From Natrialba taiwanensis DSM 12281 (GTDB lineage Archaea; Halobacteriota; Halobacteria; Halobacteriales; Natrialbaceae): 64,000 nucleotides of DNA. Shown piece by piece: positions 17,385 through 28,596 of the stretch. The stretch lies in contig NZ_AOIL01000070.1 of assembly GCF_000337595.1 (NCBI RefSeq), positions 1 to 64,000 of the forward strand, given 5' to 3'. Position 1 is the first letter of the stretch. Each line of letters opens with the position of its first letter. The translations under genes were made by a program, and so were the position numbers. The notes beneath the pieces were generated by a model. That model had not been told where the DNA came from and made no database searches. It worked only from the letters and a program-made list of their open reading frames with translations.

Positions 17385-19241
17385 TTATTCGAGCACGACC
17401 AGCACGTCACCCATATCGACGCTCTGTTCCTCCTCGACGGCGATCTCCGTCACCGTCCCGCCGCGGGAAGCCACGATGTCGTTTTCCATCTTCATCGCTT
17501 CGAGCACGACCAGCACGTCACCCGCCGCGACCTCGTCGCCCTCCTCGACTGCAACGTCGAGGATCGTCCCCTGCATCTCGGCGTCGACGGTCTCGCCGTC
17601 GCCGGCGAACTCGTCGCTGCTACCGCTGTCGCCGCCGGCCGGCTGTGGCGGACTTGCCGCCCCAGTTCCAGTGCCGGCCGCCGCCCCGTCACCGACCGGA
17701 ATCGCCGGCGCGCCGTGCTCTGCGAGTTCAACTTCGAAGCGCTTGCCGTTGACCTCGACGGTGAACTCGCGTTCGACGGTCTCTTCATCGTCTTCGTCTT
17801 CGCCCTTGGCCCCGCCGTCGCCGGTGTCGCCGCCCCACTGCGCCTGGGCCTCCTCGATCCGGCTCTCGTCGAGTTCGTTGTCGAGGTACTTCGTCGTGTG
17901 CGTGCTCGCGACGAACTGTTCGTCGGTGAGCATGAGCCGGTGGAAGGGGATGATCGTCGGGATGCCCGCAACGTCGTACTCGCGCAGGGCGCGAAGCGAG
18001 CGGGCGATACACTCCTCGCGGTCCTCGCCCCAGACGACCAGTTTGGCGATCATCGAGTCGTAGTCGGTCACGAGGTCGTCTCCCTGTCGGAGCGCGTCGT
18101 CGAGGCGGACGCCGACGCCGCCCGGCGGATCGTAGGTCTCTAGCTGGCCGCCGGTTGCGGGTGCGAAGTCCTCGGCCGCGTTCTCGGCGTTGATCCGGAA
18201 CTCCATTGCGTGGCCGTCGACCTCGACGTCGTCCTGGTCGAAGTCGACTTCCTCGCCCGCGGCGATCTGAATCTGGCGTTTGACGATGTCGTAGCCGGTG
18301 ATCTCCTCCGTGACGGTGTGTTCGACCTGGATCCGCGTGTTAACCTCGAGGAAGTAGAAGTTCGCGTCCGGCCCGAGCGGCCCGTCGCGGCCCGACTCTT
18401 CCTCGACGAGGAACTCGACGGTGCCGGCGTTGGTGTAGTCGGCGGCAGCGACCCCGCGGCGGGCGGCCTCGCCGATCTGTTCGCGGAGTTCGTCGGAGAG
18501 GGCCGCGGATGGACCTTCTTCGATGACCTTCTGGTGTCGGCGCTGAAGCGAGCAGTCCCGTTCGCCGAGGTGGCGGACGTTACCGTGCTCGTCCGCGAGA
18601 ATCTGGATCTCGATGTGGCGGGGCTGTTCGAGGTAGCGCTCGAGATAGACCGAGTCGTTGTCGAAGTAGGCCTCGCCCTCGCGCTGTGCGCTCTCTAACT
18701 GGTCCTCGATCTCGCTTTCGTCCCAGACGACCTTCATTCCGCGCCCGCCGCCGCCACCCTCGGCCTTGATGGCGATCGGATAGCCGTGTTCCTCGCCGAA
18801 CGCCGCGACCTCCTCGGGATCGGTAACGGGGTCCGTGGTCCCGGGAACGATCGGCACGTCGGCTTCGGACATGATCTCGCGGGCCTTCGTCTTCTCGCCG
18901 AGCGATTCCATCGCGTCGCTCGACGGGCCGATCCAGGTGATCCCGTCCGCGGCTTCGACCTTCTCCGCGAACTCGGCGTTCTCCGCGAGGAAGCCGTAGC
19001 CGGGGTGGATCGCGTCGGCGTCGGCCTGCTGTGCGGCCTCGATGACAGCCTCGTGATCGAGATACGAGTCCGCCGCGCGAGCGGGGCCGACATTGTACGC
19101 TTCGTCCGCGTATCGGACGTGACCGCTATCCGCGTCGGCCTCGGAGTAAATCGCGACAGTTCCGACGTTTAACTCCTCGCACGCCCGCATCACTCGAACG
19201 GCGATCTCGCCGCGGTTCGCCACGAGAACCTTCCTGAACAT
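17385..19241 (-). CDS. pccA: Acetyl/propionyl-CoA carboxylase, biotin carboxylase-BCCP subunit
   Basis: This 618-residue protein carries biotin carboxylase followed by biotin carrier domain. The N-terminus is [19 protein letters not shown]. The ATP-grasp glycine loop [11 protein letters not shown] is at about 160-170, with [30 protein letters not shown] and [14 protein letters not shown] further on. An acidic linker (about 465-535) precedes the carrier domain, whose biotin acceptor is Lys584 in [10 protein letters not shown]. It is the last of three minus-strand genes pccB-pccX-pccA, with 127 bp before its start. The complex carboxylates propionyl-CoA to methylmalonyl-CoA or acetyl-CoA to malonyl-CoA. 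Confidence 0.93.
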
Positions 19242-19368
19242 TCCTGTGAGAACGGTTGCGTGGCCACTACCTTACTTTTTCGCAACGAGGCGAGTACTCC
19301 TCACGAATAACCGGGAAAGACAGACAGTACCGCGGGAACGCAGTCCCGTCGAACCACCTGCCCGTCGC

Positions 19369-21313
<1,945 letters not shown>

Positions 21314-21430
21314 GCAGGAACCACCCCGCTTGGATTCATACGCCGTTGTGCGAGGACCAATAGGAAAAGGATTCCGTAACTCCATCACGATTAATAGACA
21401 CCTAGGTGACATTTCAGGAGTCTCACGGAA

Positions 21431-21443
21431 AGTTATATATAAG
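21431..21443 (+). promoter_or_regulatory. TATA box of the NSS transporter gene
   Basis: AGTTATATATAAG is centred about 28 bp upstream of the ATG at 21465, the distance expected for a leaderless archaeal transcript. Confidence 0.65.
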
Positions 21444-21464
21444 TCCTATTTAAACAGCGTAGGC

Positions 21465-22823
21465 ATGGAACAACGTGAGTCATGGGCAACGAGGACAGGG
21501 TTTATTCTCGCTGCCGTGGGTAGTGCTGTTGGGCTTGGAAATATCTGGCGGTTCCCATTCCAGGTTGGGGAGGGTGGTGGGTCGACGTTCCTATTCGTCT
21601 ACCTGCTGTTTATCGCACTTGTCGGATTCCCGGCGATGCTGGTCGAGTTCGTCGTCGGCCGCCGCACCAATCGGAATCCGGTCGGTGCGCTCAGTGAACT
21701 CGGGCAAGGTCTCTGGCAGAAAGTGGGCTGGTTGTTCGTCGCAACCGGCTTCCTGATTCTTTCCTACTACAGTGTCGTTGCTGGATGGACGATTCGATAC
21801 GTGCTAATCGGCCTGCAGGACGGTTATGTGGGGAATGTTGCCGGAGCTAACGAACAGTTTGGATCCGTCGCTAGCGGGCTTGATGCCGTCCTTTTGCACG
21901 CGATCTTCATGGCTGCAGTGATCGGTATCGTTGCCCTTGGCATTCAGAAAGGGATCGAGTTCTCGGTGAAGCTCATGGTCCCAGCAATTATCGCGATCAC
22001 GATCGGCCTTGCAGCCTACGCGTTCACGCTCGACGGCGCGGGTGAAGCGTACGCGTACTACCTGTCGCCGGACATCTCGGTAATTGTAAACGAGTTCACA
22101 TCCGTACTTCCGGGTGCTGCGGGACAGGCGTTCTTCACGCTCTCGCTCGGGATGGGTGTGATGATTACCTACGCGTCCTATCTGGATGAGGATCGGAATC
22201 TGGTCGAGGACGGCCTCGCAATCGTCGGTCTCGACACGCTGATCGCATTCACTGTGGGACTGATCGTGTTCCCCATTCTCTTTACGGCCGGTATCGATCC
22301 GGGCGATCCTGGTGCAGGGGCGATTTTCGTCAGTCTGGCCGCTGCGTTCGCTGAACTGCCATTCGGAGGGATCATCGGGGCCGTCTTCTTCGCGACGGTC
22401 GCGATTGCGGCGCTCTCGAGTGCGATCAGTATCATGGAAGTGGTCGTCTCGTACCTGATCGACGAGTGGGATGTCGGCCGCGTTCCTGCGACCGTCGTGC
22501 TGGGCGTCGGGCTCTTTATCGTCGGCCTGCCAGCTGCGCTCGACATCATCTTCGTGGACGTTTACGACTTATTCGTGAACAACGTGTTACTCGTTCTGGG
22601 TGCACTGCTGGTCTCGATCTTCGTCGGGTGGATCGTCCCCGAACTGGGACGCAGTGAACTCCGCAAGGGGATCGGTGATCTCGGTATCTGGGGAACGGGC
22701 TGGATTTGGCTCGTCCGTATTCCAGTGATCATCACGCTGCTTGTGACGATTGCACTCGGGGCCATGGGGTACTATGACTTCCTCACGACTGACTTCGCTG
22801 ACTGGCTCAACGAGACGCTGTAA
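21465..22823 (+). CDS. Neurotransmitter:sodium symporter (SNF) family transporter
   Basis: This 452-residue membrane protein with the LeuT fold imports an amino acid or related solute with Na+. TM1 holds the family signature SAVGLGNIWRFPFQVGEGGGS (G-L-G-N-x-W-R-F-P), which forms the sodium and substrate site. Further on are LSLGMGVMITYASYL (TM6-7 region) and FFATVAIAALSSAISIME (TM8). About 11 helices are visible. Codon use appears slightly less GC-biased than neighbours (many T-ending codons), which may reflect a different history. The ATG is placed by the TATA box at 21431-21443. Substrate is unknown. Confidence 0.9.
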   Translation: MEQRESWATRTGFILAAVGSAVGLGNIWRFPFQVGEGGGSTFLFVYLLFIALVGFPAMLVEFVVGRRTNRNPVGALSELGQGLWQKVGWLFVATGFLILSYYSVVAGWTIRYVLIGLQDGYVGNVAGANEQFGSVASGLDAVLLHAIFMAAVIGIVALGIQKGIEFSVKLMVPAIIAITIGLAAYAFTLDGAGEAYAYYLSPDISVIVNEFTSVLPGAAGQAFFTLSLGMGVMITYASYLDEDRNLVEDGLAIVGLDTLIAFTVGLIVFPILFTAGIDPGDPGAGAIFVSLAAAFAELPFGGIIGAVFFATVAIAALSSAISIMEVVVSYLIDEWDVGRVPATVVLGVGLFIVGLPAALDIIFVDVYDLFVNNVLLVLGALLVSIFVGWIVPELGRSELRKGIGDLGIWGTGWIWLVRIPVIITLLVTIALGAMGYYDFLTTDFADWLNETL

Positions 22824-22971: not shown

Positions 22972-24249
22972 ATGGTTGGGGAACTCAACCGACGGCGGGT
23001 ACTGAGTGGTATCGGTGCAGCAGGTGTGGCCGGACTAGCCGGTTGTATCGGTGACGAAGGTGATGTCACAGAAGGCGGGCCGGACGTCCTGAACATCATC
23101 GGCTATCCCGAAAGCGGCATCCAGATCTTTCGGGACTACTACTCGAACTACGACAACGGAACCGACATTATCGTCCCGGACGGGCTTCAAGACGGCGATC
23201 TTCCCGGCGAAGTCGACAACGACATGGAAAACGTCATCGGGACAGCACCAGCCTCGGAAGGACCGAACGAGGATGCCTTCAACGAACTCTACGAGGACGA
23301 GTTCGGCGACTCGCCGGGCGTCTTCAACTCGCACACGTTCGACGCGGTCGCAGTCTGTATCCTCGCGAACATCGCAGCCGGCGATAACGACGGCGAGGCG
23401 GTCCGCGACCAGATGCGCCGGGTCGCAAACCCCGGTGGCGACGAGTACGGCCCCGGTGACCTCCAGGAGGCCGCGGAAGCCGTCGCCGACGGCGACGAAA
23501 TCTCGTATCAGGGGGCCTCGAGCAGCATCACCTTCGACGATATCGGCGATCCGGCGGACGCCGGCTACGACGTTTGGGAGTTCGCGGACGGTGGGACCGA
23601 GACGATCGATACGGTCACATTCGAGGGCGAGGGGCCCGGCGGCGAGATGGCAGACGATTCTCCCGGTGGAACGGATCGCGAGGTAATGGTCGCGATGTTG
23701 CTCCCCGAAACCGGCGACCTGGGTGAACTCGGCAGCCCGATGATCCAGGCCGGCGAACTCGCTGCCGCCCAGTTCGAGGGGACCAGTTTCGAAATCGATC
23801 TCGCGATCGAAGACACCGAAACCGACGAAGATCAGACGATTTCCAACGGTGGCGCGCTTATCGACGCCGGCTATCCGGCGATCGTCGGCGCAGCCTCATC
23901 CGGGAACTCGGTGCCGCTCGTCGGGGAGACAAGCAGCGCGAACGTCGTCCAGTGCTCACCGGCGAGTACGGCACTTTCGCTGTCAGAAGTCGACGACGAC
24001 GACTACTTCTTCCGCACGGCACCGAGTGACTTGCTCCAGGGCCAGGTTATGGCCCAGGTCTCGGCCGAGCGCCTCGAGGCCGGCACCGTCGGCACGCTGT
24101 ACGTCAACAACGACTACGGCCAGCAACTCTCCGAGCAGTACGTCAGCTCGTTCACCGAGGAACAGGGCGGGGACGCGCTCAACGAAGTCTCGTTCGAACC
24201 CGAGCAGGGCTCGTACACCGGTGAACTCGAGTCGGCACTTGCCGAGTAA
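22972..24249 (+). CDS. Branched-chain amino-acid-type binding lipoprotein, apparently circularly permuted
   Basis: This is a 425-residue protein with a Tat-type signal (ELNRRRVLSGIG) and lipobox LAGC (Cys25), a type I periplasmic-binding protein. In the usual family order, the N-terminal block (VMVAMLLPETGDLGELGSP, then DAGYPAIVGAASSG, CSPASTALSLS, YFFRTAPSDLLQGQ, LYVNNDYGQQLSE, EQGSYTGELESALAE) comes first and the block from PDVLNIIGYPESG onward follows. Here the second block (about 37-220: GIQIFRDYYSNYDNG, TFDAVAVCILANIAAG, QMRRVANPGG, YQGASSSITFDD) directly follows the signal, and the first block (about 236-425) ends the protein. A Gly/Asp linker (218-235) joins them. The frame is continuous. 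It is convergent with livHMGF, whose transporter it may serve. Confidence 0.85.
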   Translation: MVGELNRRRVLSGIGAAGVAGLAGCIGDEGDVTEGGPDVLNIIGYPESGIQIFRDYYSNYDNGTDIIVPDGLQDGDLPGEVDNDMENVIGTAPASEGPNEDAFNELYEDEFGDSPGVFNSHTFDAVAVCILANIAAGDNDGEAVRDQMRRVANPGGDEYGPGDLQEAAEAVADGDEISYQGASSSITFDDIGDPADAGYDVWEFADGGTETIDTVTFEGEGPGGEMADDSPGGTDREVMVAMLLPETGDLGELGSPMIQAGELAAAQFEGTSFEIDLAIEDTETDEDQTISNGGALIDAGYPAIVGAASSGNSVPLVGETSSANVVQCSPASTALSLSEVDDDDYFFRTAPSDLLQGQVMAQVSAERLEAGTVGTLYVNNDYGQQLSEQYVSSFTEEQGGDALNEVSFEPEQGSYTGELESALAE

Positions 24250-24378: not shown

Positions 24379-25083
24379 TTACCCGCCGAGAAACTGCTGG
24401 CGAACCTCCTCGTCGTGGAGCAACGCATCCCCGTCATCGACGTACCGGTTTCGCCCCTGGACGAGAACGTATCCCCGGTCACAGCGACGCAACGCCTCCT
24501 TGGCGTTTTGCTCGACCACCAGCACGGCCGTCCCGTTGTCGTTGATCATATCGACGTGGTCGAACATCTCGTCGACCAAATCCGGCGCGAGGCCGGCACT
24601 CGGTTCGTCGAGCAACAACAGATCCGGATCGAGCATCAGCGCCCGCCCCATCGCGACCATCTGCTGTTGCCCCCCGCTCATCGACCCCGTCTTCTGGTCC
24701 CGTCGCTCCCGCAAAATCGGGAACTGGTCGAACACCGCCTCGAGTGCATCCCCCGGGACCTCATCGAGGATGTACGCTCCCATCTCGAGATTCTCCTGCA
24801 CCGTCAGCGACGGGAAGACGTTCTCCGTCTGGGGAACGTAGCCGATGCCCTTGTGAATGATCTCGTCGGGCGAATGACCCGTGATGTCCTCGTCGTTGAA
24901 CTCGATCGAGCCGTCCATGTAGGTCGCCAGGCCAAATACTGACTTCATCGCGGTCGACTTGCCGGCCCCGTTCGGCCCAACGATGACGACATACTCATCC
25001 TCGGCAACCTCGAGATCCACATCGCTCAGGACCTGCAGGTCGCCGTACCCGGCATCGAGCCCGGACACGTCGAGCATCGCCAT
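24379..25083 (-). CDS. livF: Branched-chain amino-acid ABC transporter ATP-binding protein LivF
   Basis: This 234-residue ABC ATPase has Walker A GPNGAGKST, ABC signature SMSGGQQQM, Walker B LLLLDEPSAG and the switch region VLVVEQNAKEAL, which is characteristic of LivF. Its ATG (25083) overlaps the livG stop codon as TGATG, so the two are translationally coupled. It is the last gene of a four-gene operon. The ATPase couples ATP hydrolysis in the cytoplasm to import through LivH/LivM. It ends 129 bp from the convergent binding-protein gene. Confidence 0.92.
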   Translation of the reverse strand: MAMLDVSGLDAGYGDLQVLSDVDLEVAEDEYVVIVGPNGAGKSTAMKSVFGLATYMDGSIEFNDEDITGHSPDEIIHKGIGYVPQTENVFPSLTVQENLEMGAYILDEVPGDALEAVFDQFPILRERRDQKTGSMSGGQQQMVAMGRALMLDPDLLLLDEPSAGLAPDLVDEMFDHVDMINDNGTAVLVVEQNAKEALRRCDRGYVLVQGRNRYVDDGDALLHDEEVRQQFLGG

Positions 25084-25955
25084 CAAACCTCACCTCCGAG
25101 ATAGGCCTCGATGACCCGTTCGTTAGACGTAATCTGCCCGGGAACGCCCTCCGCCAGGACCGACCCCTGGTGCATGACGATCACGTGCTCGCAGTTGTCC
25201 ATAATGAGATCCATATCGTGTTCGACGATCAGGAAGGTGTACCCGTCCGCTCGCAGTTCGTGGATATGCTCGAGCAACTTCTTCTCGAGCGTCGGATTGA
25301 CGCCCGCGAACGGCTCGTCGAGCAGCAACATCTCCGGCTCCGTCATCAGCGCCCGCGCCATCTCGAGCAACTTCCGCTGACCGCCGGAGAGCGTCCCTGC
25401 CTTCTCCTCGGCAATGTGCTCTATCTCGAAGAACTCGAGTGTGTCCCAGACGCGTTCAAGGAGTTCTCGTTCCTGTTGTTCGACCTCGCGTCTGGCAACC
25501 GGCATGACCGACCGCCAGAGGGCCTCGCCCTGCTGGTGTTTCGCCGGGAGCATCAGGTTCTCGAGGACGGTCATGTTCGCCATCTCGCGAGCGATCTGAA
25601 ACGTCCTGACGAGGCCGTAGTCGACACACTCGTACGGATTGATGCCGGTGATGTCCCGGCCCTGAAACGTGACGGTACCGGCATCGGGTTGGTGGATACC
25701 GGTGATGCAGTTGAACGTGGTCGACTTGCCGGCCCCGTTCGGCCCGATCAACCCCGTCATCGAGCCGGATTCGACCGTGAACGAAGCACCGTCGACAGCC
25801 GTAATCCCACCGAAGCGCTTGCCGAGCCTGTTGACCGCGAGTTCAACGTCGTCACTGTATTCGGTCGCCGGTCTCGAGACGGATTCGGTGTCCGTGCCAG
25901 TGTCGATGTTCGTTCCCGTTTCGGCTGACCGGACGTTTGCTGAGCTGTCACTCAT
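25083..25955 (-). CDS. livG: Branched-chain amino-acid ABC transporter ATP-binding protein LivG
   Basis: This 290-residue ABC ATPase of the LivG type has Walker A GPNGAGKST, signature TLSGGQRKL, Walker B MLLLDEPFAGVNP and the His switch in LIVEHDMDLIM. The first 35 residues are a Thr/Ser/Asp-rich extension not needed for the fold. The ATG at 25955 overlaps the livM stop (ATGA). The motif FGGITAVDGASFTVE near the start and GLVRTFQIAREM (LivG-type RTFQ) support LivG rather than LivF. Confidence 0.92.
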   Translation of the reverse strand: MSDSSANVRSAETGTNIDTGTDTESVSRPATEYSDDVELAVNRLGKRFGGITAVDGASFTVESGSMTGLIGPNGAGKSTTFNCITGIHQPDAGTVTFQGRDITGINPYECVDYGLVRTFQIAREMANMTVLENLMLPAKHQQGEALWRSVMPVARREVEQQERELLERVWDTLEFFEIEHIAEEKAGTLSGGQRKLLEMARALMTEPEMLLLDEPFAGVNPTLEKKLLEHIHELRADGYTFLIVEHDMDLIMDNCEHVIVMHQGSVLAEGVPGQITSNERVIEAYLGGEV

Positions 25956-27487
25956 GGTTTCTCACCGCCGGTGTGGGTCGTCTCGTTCGTTTCGCTCGTT
26001 TCGCTTGTCTCGCTCGTCGCGTCTGTAGTCGTTCTCGGTTCGATATCGTGGTCGTGGTCAGGTGCGTCAGTACTGGCACTGTTCGAGTGGCCATGAGTGC
26101 GGTTGTGATCGACGCCTGTCCCGGGATCGTCACCGGTATCGTTACTGTTGCCACCACTGCTATTGCCCCCGCCACGACTGCCACCACCACCGCTACCGCC
26201 GGTTCCGGCACCACTCGGGCGACTTCCCAGTGGAATCGCAGCCGCCGTTTCCTCGCGATGGCCGAGCAATCCCTCCGGCCGCCGTTGCATGAGGAGGATT
26301 AATGCGACACCCATGATCACGAACTGGAGCGTCAGGAACTCGTCAAACGTGTACCGAACCAGCGGCGCGGGGTCCGCAGAGAGCAGCGGTCCGACCGCGC
26401 CCGCGAAGGTATTCGGGGCGTCGTCGACTGCCACGACCTGATCGATCACCCGTCGGAGGTACTGCGGCCCCTCAAACAGGATGGCGACGAAGAGCCCGGA
26501 CCCGAGAACGCTTCCCGTGTTCGAGCCTGCACCACCGATGATCAGCGCGATCCAGATGTAGAACGTGACGTGCGGACGGAACGCCGTGGGCGTCACGCCA
26601 GTCCGTCGGAATCGCCACAAAATTCCGGCGAGTCCCATCAGCGCACAGCCGAGCACGAACACCTTTATCTTGAACCGGTTCGTGTTCTTGCCGAGGGACT
26701 GGGCCGCCTCCTCGTCCTCGCGGATCGCCTTCAGCACGCGCCCGAACGGCGACCGGCTCGTCCGCTGGATGAGCCAGTAAAAGCCCGCCAGAACGAGTAC
26801 GAGCACGATCGAATACGCGAGCGCCCGCGCCTGCGTCGGCCCGAACCCGAACAGACTGTTCGTCAGATCGACGAACGAACTGAACGCTCCGAGTTCGAAG
26901 ATGGCATTCATCGGGTCGCCGTAGTTCCGGATGAGTCCGCGGCCGCCGCCCGTCCCGAGTTCAGCACCGAGAACGGTGAACTCCTGGAGCGCACCGGAGG
27001 TGACCCCGAGACGGACGATTTCTGCGAACGCGATGGTCGTGATGGCGAAGTAGTCGGCCCGCAACCGCAGTGCGGGAAGGGCGACGACGAGGCCGGCGAG
27101 GCCAGCGATGACGACGCCACCGACGATGGCGATGGGAACCGGAAGACCGAGACCGGAGTATTGTGCGGCCCCGCTCGGGTCGGCCGGCTTCGCGAGCATC
27201 ATGGTGGCGTACAGTCCGATCGCCATGAAGCCGGCGATGCCGATGTTGAACAGTCCGGTGTAGCCCCAGTGGAGGTTCAACGCCAGCGTCACCATCCCGT
27301 AGACCGCGATCAGGTAGGTCATCCGCCGGAGCGTGTTGATGATCCCGTCCAGCGAGTAGCCGAGGACGAGGCCGATCGCGGCGTATATGAGGTAGATCGC
27401 CCCGATAACCGCGACGATCTTGAGGGCGTCGTGTTCCCACAGCGTTTCCAGTTGTGCTCGGTAATCGGAGTGCGGTGTCGCGCTCAT
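25952..27487 (-). CDS. livM: Branched-chain amino-acid ABC transporter permease LivM
   Basis: This is a 511-residue permease. Residues about 20-410 form the LivM fold with about ten hydrophobic helices and the EAA-like segment FGRVLKAIREDEEAAQSLGKN plus IGGAGSNTGSVLGSGLFV. Residues about 414-511 are an unusual low-complexity tail: a Gly/Ser/Asn-rich run, a His/Asp-rich part (GVDHNRTHGHS, DHDHDIE) and a Thr/Ser/Glu repeat (TSETSETSETNET). The tail may be cytoplasmic. The start ATG 27487 overlaps the livH stop as ATGA. Substrate is inferred only from family. Confidence 0.9.
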   Translation of the reverse strand: MSATPHSDYRAQLETLWEHDALKIVAVIGAIYLIYAAIGLVLGYSLDGIINTLRRMTYLIAVYGMVTLALNLHWGYTGLFNIGIAGFMAIGLYATMMLAKPADPSGAAQYSGLGLPVPIAIVGGVVIAGLAGLVVALPALRLRADYFAITTIAFAEIVRLGVTSGALQEFTVLGAELGTGGGRGLIRNYGDPMNAIFELGAFSSFVDLTNSLFGFGPTQARALAYSIVLVLVLAGFYWLIQRTSRSPFGRVLKAIREDEEAAQSLGKNTNRFKIKVFVLGCALMGLAGILWRFRRTGVTPTAFRPHVTFYIWIALIIGGAGSNTGSVLGSGLFVAILFEGPQYLRRVIDQVVAVDDAPNTFAGAVGPLLSADPAPLVRYTFDEFLTLQFVIMGVALILLMQRRPEGLLGHREETAAAIPLGSRPSGAGTGGSGGGGSRGGGNSSGGNSNDTGDDPGTGVDHNRTHGHSNSASTDAPDHDHDIEPRTTTDATSETSETSETNETTHTGGEKP

Positions 27488-28596
27488 GCTGTCGTCTTCC
27501 CTCCGAAGAGCCCGGATGGCCTGATTAGCAAGACCAGGATCATCATCAGGAACGCCGTGATGGTCGTAAAGTCGCCGCCGGGAAGCCAGATCATTGACAT
27601 GTGCATGGTGACGCCGATGACGAGACCGCCGAAGATCGCACCGTAGATCGAGCCGATCCCGCCGAGGATCACGGCGGCGAAGATCAACAGCAAGAGCAGC
27701 CAGCCGAACTGCCAGTCGATCGTCCCCGTCCACAGCACCATGAGGTATCCCGCGCTGCCGGCGAGTCCCCCGCCGATCATCCAGGTCCAGCGGATCACGC
27801 GCTCGGTCGGAATCCCGGTTACAAGGGCCAGGTCCTTGTTATCCGACATCGCCCGCATGGCCTTCCCGAGTTTCGTTCGCTGGAGCAGCAGGTGGACACC
27901 GATCATCAGCGCCGCTGCCGCCGCGATCAACGTCCCGTCGTGGGCGTCGATCGACACGTAGCCGTCGACGAGCAACAGATCGGCCGACGGGACGCTCGCG
28001 GTAGTCCCCCGAGACTGGCTCGAATACACGAACACGATGAGGTAGCGCAGCGCGAAGGCGACGCCGATACTGGTGATCAACAGCGGGATGCCGTCGGAAC
28101 CGCGCATCGGCTTGTAGGCGAGGCGGTCGATCAGCACTGCGAGTAGTGCGGTCCCGACGCCAGCGAGCAGGAGGCCGCCGAAAATCGCGATCGGCGTCGA
28201 CATAACCGAAATGCCGAACTGTGGCCCCCCAATGCCCCGCTGTGGACCGACGAGGGCCAGATGACCGATACTCGCCGCACCCCAGCCGCCGATGAGATAC
28301 GTGCCGCCCCAGCCGATGAACGCGCCGACAGTAATCGTATCACCGTGTGCGAAGTTTGCGAAATTGAGGATACTATAGGTCATCGAGAGACCGATTCCCG
28401 CGAGACCGATAATCAGTCCGTACAGAACCCCTTGCATCACGTATCGCCCGATACGTGAGATGTTATACGTCCCGTCAAAGACGCCGAGGATGAGATCTCC
28501 CACCAGGAGTAAAGCACCAGTCCCAACAGCGAGCAACAGGAGTTGCTCGACTGTGAGATTTCTCCCCCGTGTAACGGCGTCATCTACAGTCGACAT
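27484..28596 (-). CDS. livH: Branched-chain amino-acid ABC transporter permease LivH
   Basis: This 370-residue inner-membrane permease of the LivH type is the first gene of livHMGF. Motifs include LAGIGLSMTYSILNFANFAHGD, the cytoplasmic loop TKLGKAMRAMSDNKDLALVTGI that contacts the ATPases, and ILGGIGSIYGAIFGGL. An insertion around residues 100-130 (GGWGAASIGHLALVGPQRGI) makes it longer than many bacterial homologues. It has a Shine-Dalgarno-like GGAGG about 8 bp before the ATG, unusual in this window. Confidence 0.92.
   Translation of the reverse strand: MSTVDDAVTRGRNLTVEQLLLLAVGTGALLLVGDLILGVFDGTYNISRIGRYVMQGVLYGLIIGLAGIGLSMTYSILNFANFAHGDTITVGAFIGWGGTYLIGGWGAASIGHLALVGPQRGIGGPQFGISVMSTPIAIFGGLLLAGVGTALLAVLIDRLAYKPMRGSDGIPLLITSIGVAFALRYLIVFVYSSQSRGTTASVPSADLLLVDGYVSIDAHDGTLIAAAAALMIGVHLLLQRTKLGKAMRAMSDNKDLALVTGIPTERVIRWTWMIGGGLAGSAGYLMVLWTGTIDWQFGWLLLLLIFAAVILGGIGSIYGAIFGGLVIGVTMHMSMIWLPGGDFTTITAFLMMILVLLIRPSGLFGGKTTA

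Follow-up and report, generated by a model that had tools for sequence, protein, structure and literature searches.

In the window, by which we mean the whole stretch of 64,000 nucleotides of Natrialba taiwanensis DSM 12281 that was analysed, the forward-strand open reading frame at 22972..24249 encodes a LivJ/LivK-type substrate-binding protein (SBP) with Tat signal and lipobox in which the half that is late in the family precedes the half that is early in the family. The product very probably is a working, circularly permuted, lipid-anchored and Tat-exported type I SBP with the normal flytrap fold, which would probably feed an amino acid to a LivHMGF importer. Support for the circular permutation of this Peripla_BP_6-type protein, as proposed in a previous sequence-only reading, comes from the order of the profile matches and from orthologues with the same order.

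Segments of the window gene and order of its halves

The protein of 425 aa has the order C - linker - N1 - N23, designated permA, and all of its segments are encoded on the forward strand. The open reading frame, the Tat signal (NRRRVL, with the motif arginines R7-R9) and the lipobox LAGC with Cys25 (22972..23046) were found in the sequence as previously described. The subsequent C segment, the family-late half (residues 37-217, 23080..23622), is supported by profile positions 223-312 and by mapping on LivK, and is followed by a junction linker (residues 218-235, 23623..23676) with a conserved motif, which connects the original C- and N-termini. The N1 segment (residues 236-281, 23677..23814), the family's first strand and helix, is located C-terminally in the permB relatives introduced below, while the N23 segment (residues 282-425, 23815..24246), assigned by profile and LivK mapping, ends exactly at the permutation cut. 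The junctions of the gene are placed at 23080 (residue 37) and approximately 23677 (residue 236).

Searched with Peripla_BP_6, the whole protein scored 81.3 bits (cut-off 31.7) in two stretches. Positions 2-187 of the profile match residues 238-423, and positions 223-312 match approximately residues 68-152 when the first part is searched alone (its residues 32-116), so that the early profile positions fall into the second half and the order is non-collinear. The expectation that residues 37-217 would match late and residues 236-425 early positions was hence borne out; the second block is present as described, with its start at V238 instead of residue 236, a trivial offset. Two canonical paralogs in the same genome are equally matched in two pieces, which have the opposite order and directly abut each other (C50:85910-87082, E 9e-43 and 6e-29; C18:27887-29050, E 3e-41 and 1e-25), E-values which exclude a chance origin of the matches.

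In the linker, F217, G219, P222, G224, A227, D228, P231, G232, G233 and R236 are invariant or at least 90% conserved, and the AlphaFold2 confidence of the linker blocks is 84-91. Its previously noted resemblance to the spacer that follows a lipobox proved not to be informative, since the linker is conserved as an element in its own right.

Rotations of the family and their origins

With the family cut into three segments, N1 (the first ~46 residues), N23 and C, all three possible rotations exist among the fetched loci, namely N1-N23-C (canonical), C-N1-N23 (permA, 78 distinct) and N23-C-N1 (permB, 3). Of the previous view of one odd gene, the order thus stands and the singularity does not, since the family is widespread and includes a second permutation variant. 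In permB, found in three genomes (G016, G017 and G366), the first ~46 residues have moved to the C-terminus, the linker between C and N1 is of the same kind as in permA, and the predicted model (pTM 0.84) aligns to 3TD9 over 331 columns, as the permB order predicts. Along nearly its whole length permB is nearest to permA, so that an origin of permB by fusion of canonical and permA pieces is not supported. Trees built on sequences rotated into a common register place permB at two positions within permA, one with L026/L060 (100/98) and the other with L087 (98/97), a double nesting seen again in the enlarged tree.

The initial sample gave a single clade of permuted genes (100/99). Upon addition of more distant permA and more canonical genes, the main clade of permA and permB stays (100/97), clade iii (L144, L146-L148, L154) is embedded in canonical genes (100/98 and 100/95), and separate positions are taken by clade ii (L143, L152, L156) and L155. 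It is quite possible, if somewhat short of an even chance, that the permA genes nevertheless descend from one permutation event and that later recombination with canonical paralogs swapped the N halves in some lineages, giving the polyphyletic look. In agreement with such a history, clade iii falls among canonical genes in the N-half tree while clades ii and iii weakly join the main permA clade in the C-half tree (aLRT 82); all permuted clades also share one cut site. Against it, the linkers of the permuted clades (main, ii, iii, L155) are strongly unlike one another, and the C half of L155 groups with canonical L136/L168 (aLRT 96). Approximately unbiased (AU) tests on the full-length tree with enlarged canonical sampling reject one clade comprising every permuted gene (p=0.0005) and the main clade together with clade iii as one clade (p=0.0135), while one clade is not rejected with fewer canonical rows (p 0.06), p-values to be read in the light of the sampling having been enlarged after the first tree had been seen.

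The strongest individual case for a permutation of separate origin is L155 (L155:4279-5676, genome G311), a lone permA gene with a linker unlike the others. A canonical SBP near clade iii (L124:1906-3183, genome G007), with a shared GFPQSG motif and an acidic C-terminal tail, could be the unpermuted sister of this clade or a reversion. It is possible, at rather less than an even chance, that this haloarchaeal SBP family has been permuted repeatedly and convergently, with the same mid-protein cut arising independently in at least two lineages, the second cut twice inside the permuted clade, and every rotation beside the same kind of importer; transfer of the anchor out of lobe 1 into lobe 2, reversed in permB, may in this case be selected.

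As to the mechanism, duplication or fission would have joined the old ends via the conserved linker of ~18 residues, and new ends would have opened in the loop that leads from the final N-half helix to the GYP strand with which the C half begins its fold in canonical order. An origin by tandem duplication with partial deletions, as previously suggested, is plausible, although a duplicated or partly duplicated SBP intermediate (a fused N-C-N-C gene) was not found among the loci examined. The same lack would be expected if gene fission and re-fusion had taken the place of duplication and trimming, a route that we consider rather unlikely: free-standing half genes were not noted in an unsystematic look, and at the permB termini a small number of residues around strand 2 seem redundant (L131 ends ...LDIS and starts SGLEIN...), the kind of remnant expected of a trimmed duplicate, though short and not decisive. 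An apparent duplication intermediate in genome G120 (residues 153-425 followed by 36-219 in a 592-aa frame) turned out to be canonical, the match upstream of it being of low complexity, and two long frames considered as fusions (G312, 1241 aa; G327, 924 aa) are single permA SBPs with stop-free upstream DNA.

The permutation cut maps to approximately LivK residue 194. According to the LivK/LivJ structures, we take this loop to be part of lobe 2 and the original N-terminus to be part of lobe 1; the lipid-anchored end would consequently have moved from lobe 1 to lobe 2, through which the anchor would now enter, while the permB chain would open in lobe 1 again. Tethering has been raised as a possible reason for the permutation of the treponemal SBP TpMglB-2 by its authors (PMC4990184); extended to the haloarchaeal permutation, it is an idea, not a result.

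Predicted fold, ligand site and probable partner importer

From an alignment of 54 permuted sequences, permuted homologues only, AlphaFold2 predicts permA as one confident globule (pLDDT 88.8, pTM 0.88). Its best Foldseek matches in the PDB are leucine and aliphatic amino-acid SBPs (3TD9, 4GNR, 1Z15 and 3IPC), with only ~190 of 401 residues aligning sequentially to any PDB SBP (TMq ~0.4), as expected for a sequential aligner that meets a permuted chain. Equivalents of LivK S79, T102, Y150, E226 (here D) and Y276 (here F), which we take to be the amino-acid-contact residues, are fixed in 26/26 permA proteins and nearly fixed in canonical homologues; the LivK reference sequence used matches 1USG over its full length. 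In the window protein, the C segment contributes Y44 (Y202, by motif), D70 (E226) and F118 (Y276), and N23 contributes S310 (S79), T333 (T102) and Y382 (Y150). With contact residues derived from both halves, the cleft can form only when the two halves are packed together as they are in unpermuted SBPs. The single-globule model and the conserved ligand positions support the prediction that the permuted protein could still bind ligand, most likely an aliphatic or branched-chain L-amino acid, and the contact pattern would argue against a sugar such as glucose.

Circular permutation can favour domain swapping, which would be compatible with the permuted chain forming a domain-swapped dimer; the high single-chain pTM and the ordered linker speak against this arrangement. 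A sensory instead of a transport role has a parallel in SBPs that serve chemosensing, for example BasB (PMC12240190), and is opposed by the constantly adjacent livFGMH genes, in a neighbourhood queried with Liv, SNF and Pcc only. A swapped dimer or a sensor is consequently improbable. In the preferred reading, the permuted chain would fold into a normal two-lobed flytrap and, as a lipid-anchored, Tat-exported type I SBP, capture an aliphatic or branched-chain L-amino acid and pass it to LivHMGF, the same job as performed by the unpermuted SBPs in that genomic slot.

The importer genes are all located on the reverse strand, with the LivF-type ATPase (24379..25086) as the convergent neighbour of the SBP in a conserved pairing, followed by a LivG-type ATPase (25083..25955), a LivM-type permease in an open reading frame with an upstream extension (25952..27733) and a LivH-type permease (27484..28596). 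The convergent pairing of SBP and livFGMH was observed at nearly all permuted loci with enough flank. The window SBP most likely hands its substrate to this adjacent ABC importer; as the SBP gene converges on livFGMH and is not co-transcribed with it, the partnership rests on conserved adjacency. Depending on the genome, the slot between PccB and LivF is filled by a canonical, a permA or a permB SBP. In other genomes a canonical SBP occupies the LivF-side slot, in several cases (L115, L118, L120, L124 and L126) with PccB also adjacent as in the window, and a permB SBP occupies it in L116/L117, which makes permuted and ordinary SBPs appear exchangeable at one locus. Trees of LivF and LivG do not split cleanly by SBP permutation at modest support, and a clean LivF/LivG partner clade for permuted SBPs was not found.

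On the other side, a sodium-dependent (SNF-type) transporter gene (21213-22823, forward strand) and PccB/biotin carboxylase genes (17385-21412, reverse strand) are located beside the SBP and have been kept there in Natrialba relatives. This adjacency could point to a connection of amino-acid uptake with propionyl-CoA metabolism.

Occurrence of the permuted order and relation to known binding proteins

Orthologues with the same order are present in many independent assemblies, single-contig genomes included. Single full-length matches to the 425-aa query were obtained in ~24 of 125 genomes of the family, and among the matches listed for the order, roughly 140 of 392 genomes possess the permA order, closed chromosomes included; the tally of 163 genomes (of 392) at E<=1e-70 takes in a few that are not permA. 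The permuted order was seen at about 70 loci of named genomes, with carriers including Natrialba, Natronorubrum, Haloterrigena, Halorussus, Halorubrum, Haloferax, Halobellus, Haladaptatus and the complete chromosome of Halostella pelagica. When the fetched loci were classed by script, 90 open reading frames came out as permuted and 25 as not, a classification that counted duplicates, placed permB among the 25 and was later refined. Twin arginines are present in 78/78 and a lipobox in 76/78 permuted homologues examined. The dN/dS ratio of the window gene against five relatives is 0.08-0.12, with nonsynonymous change low in both halves, and the permuted gene is, judged from these substitutions, kept under selection. 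Apart from the location of the window gene on a draft contig (assembly of 70 contigs), nothing was found in favour of an assembly or sequencing chimera of two canonical SBP genes, an explanation of practically negligible probability, since other genera as well as closed or near-closed assemblies show this order at 95-75% identity and the gene is under purifying selection; full-length collinear matches in the independent and single-contig genomes rule out an assembly join.

In a profile search of the phylum, the matches listed for relatives outside the order Halobacteriales were all split, and canonical where both pieces were listed. Equally, the full-coverage matches listed for PLSDB plasmids were all in two pieces, as given by canonical genes.

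In Natrialba aegyptia (genome G042; L091:6001-7108 / L127:1286-2822) the permuted gene is seemingly broken, with matches in two overlapping frames that end at approximately residue 266 of the query, and in genome G265 (L149:3567-4670) a permA gene is truncated within N23, apparently as a pseudogene or by a frameshift. Two tandem permA SBPs occur in Haladaptatus sp. DYF46 (L045:5791-8616) and in similar genomes (L184, L185, L186 and L187); in every pair read, the Tat-type arginines of the second copy are kept, while its lipobox is lost together with most of the spacer.

Both halves of the window protein are homologous to those of LivJ/LivK-type SBPs (Peripla_BP_6, HAAT; 1USG, 1Z15, 3TD9, 4GNR), which it resembles in the conserved amino-acid-contact positions, the pairing with livFGMH and the matching half-folds. 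The export signal and linked ABC importer of HAAT proteins are equally present, as Tat signal with lipobox and as adjacent livFGMH. It differs in the order C-linker-N, the extra conserved linker and termini at a new site; it would work like LivJ/LivK and is homologous to them, yet departs from their collinear order. Canonical haloarchaeal SBPs of this locus, located either next to LivF or with PccB and LivF as flanking genes (for example L126, L118, L120, L093), are unpermuted and share ~40-68% identity with the permuted proteins in corresponding segments.

TpMglB-2 (Tp0684) of Treponema pallidum is the only natural precedent found in the open-access literature searched, in which no report of a haloarchaeal SBP permutation was met with, an absence that is weak evidence. 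This bacterial sugar binder, a lipid-tethered type I SBP for which 'Type Ic / Cluster Bc' has been proposed, is a natural circular permutation with binding retained by experiment; the first three N-lobe strands are at the C-terminus, the moved part shows little sequence similarity, and a fourth inter-lobe crossover has been described (PMC4990184). Shared with the window protein is the natural permutation of a lipid-tethered type I SBP. In the window protein, however, the cut is mid-protein, the whole N half (190 residues) has moved, homology is clear in both halves, and the protein is archaeal with an amino acid as its likely ligand; the cut sites were compared by description (PMC4990184) and not by superposition. 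PermB is closer to the TpMglB-2 layout than permA, but only the first strand and helix (~46 residues) have moved. While natural SBP permutation itself is known from TpMglB-2, the permuted haloarchaeal family and its second rotation appear to be new.

Each half receives collinear HMM and Foldseek matches of good coverage, and routine annotation can therefore miss such a rearrangement. Circular permutation is mostly known from isolated protein pairs. Here, one family in one genomic slot with one kind of partner transporter presents three rotations and many replicate lineages, and the interest of the permuted SBP lies in these replicate rotations at one locus. They allow tests of duplication versus fission, of reversal and of recombination of permutations, and equally of a possible effect of lipid-anchor position on substrate handover from the flytrap to an importer.
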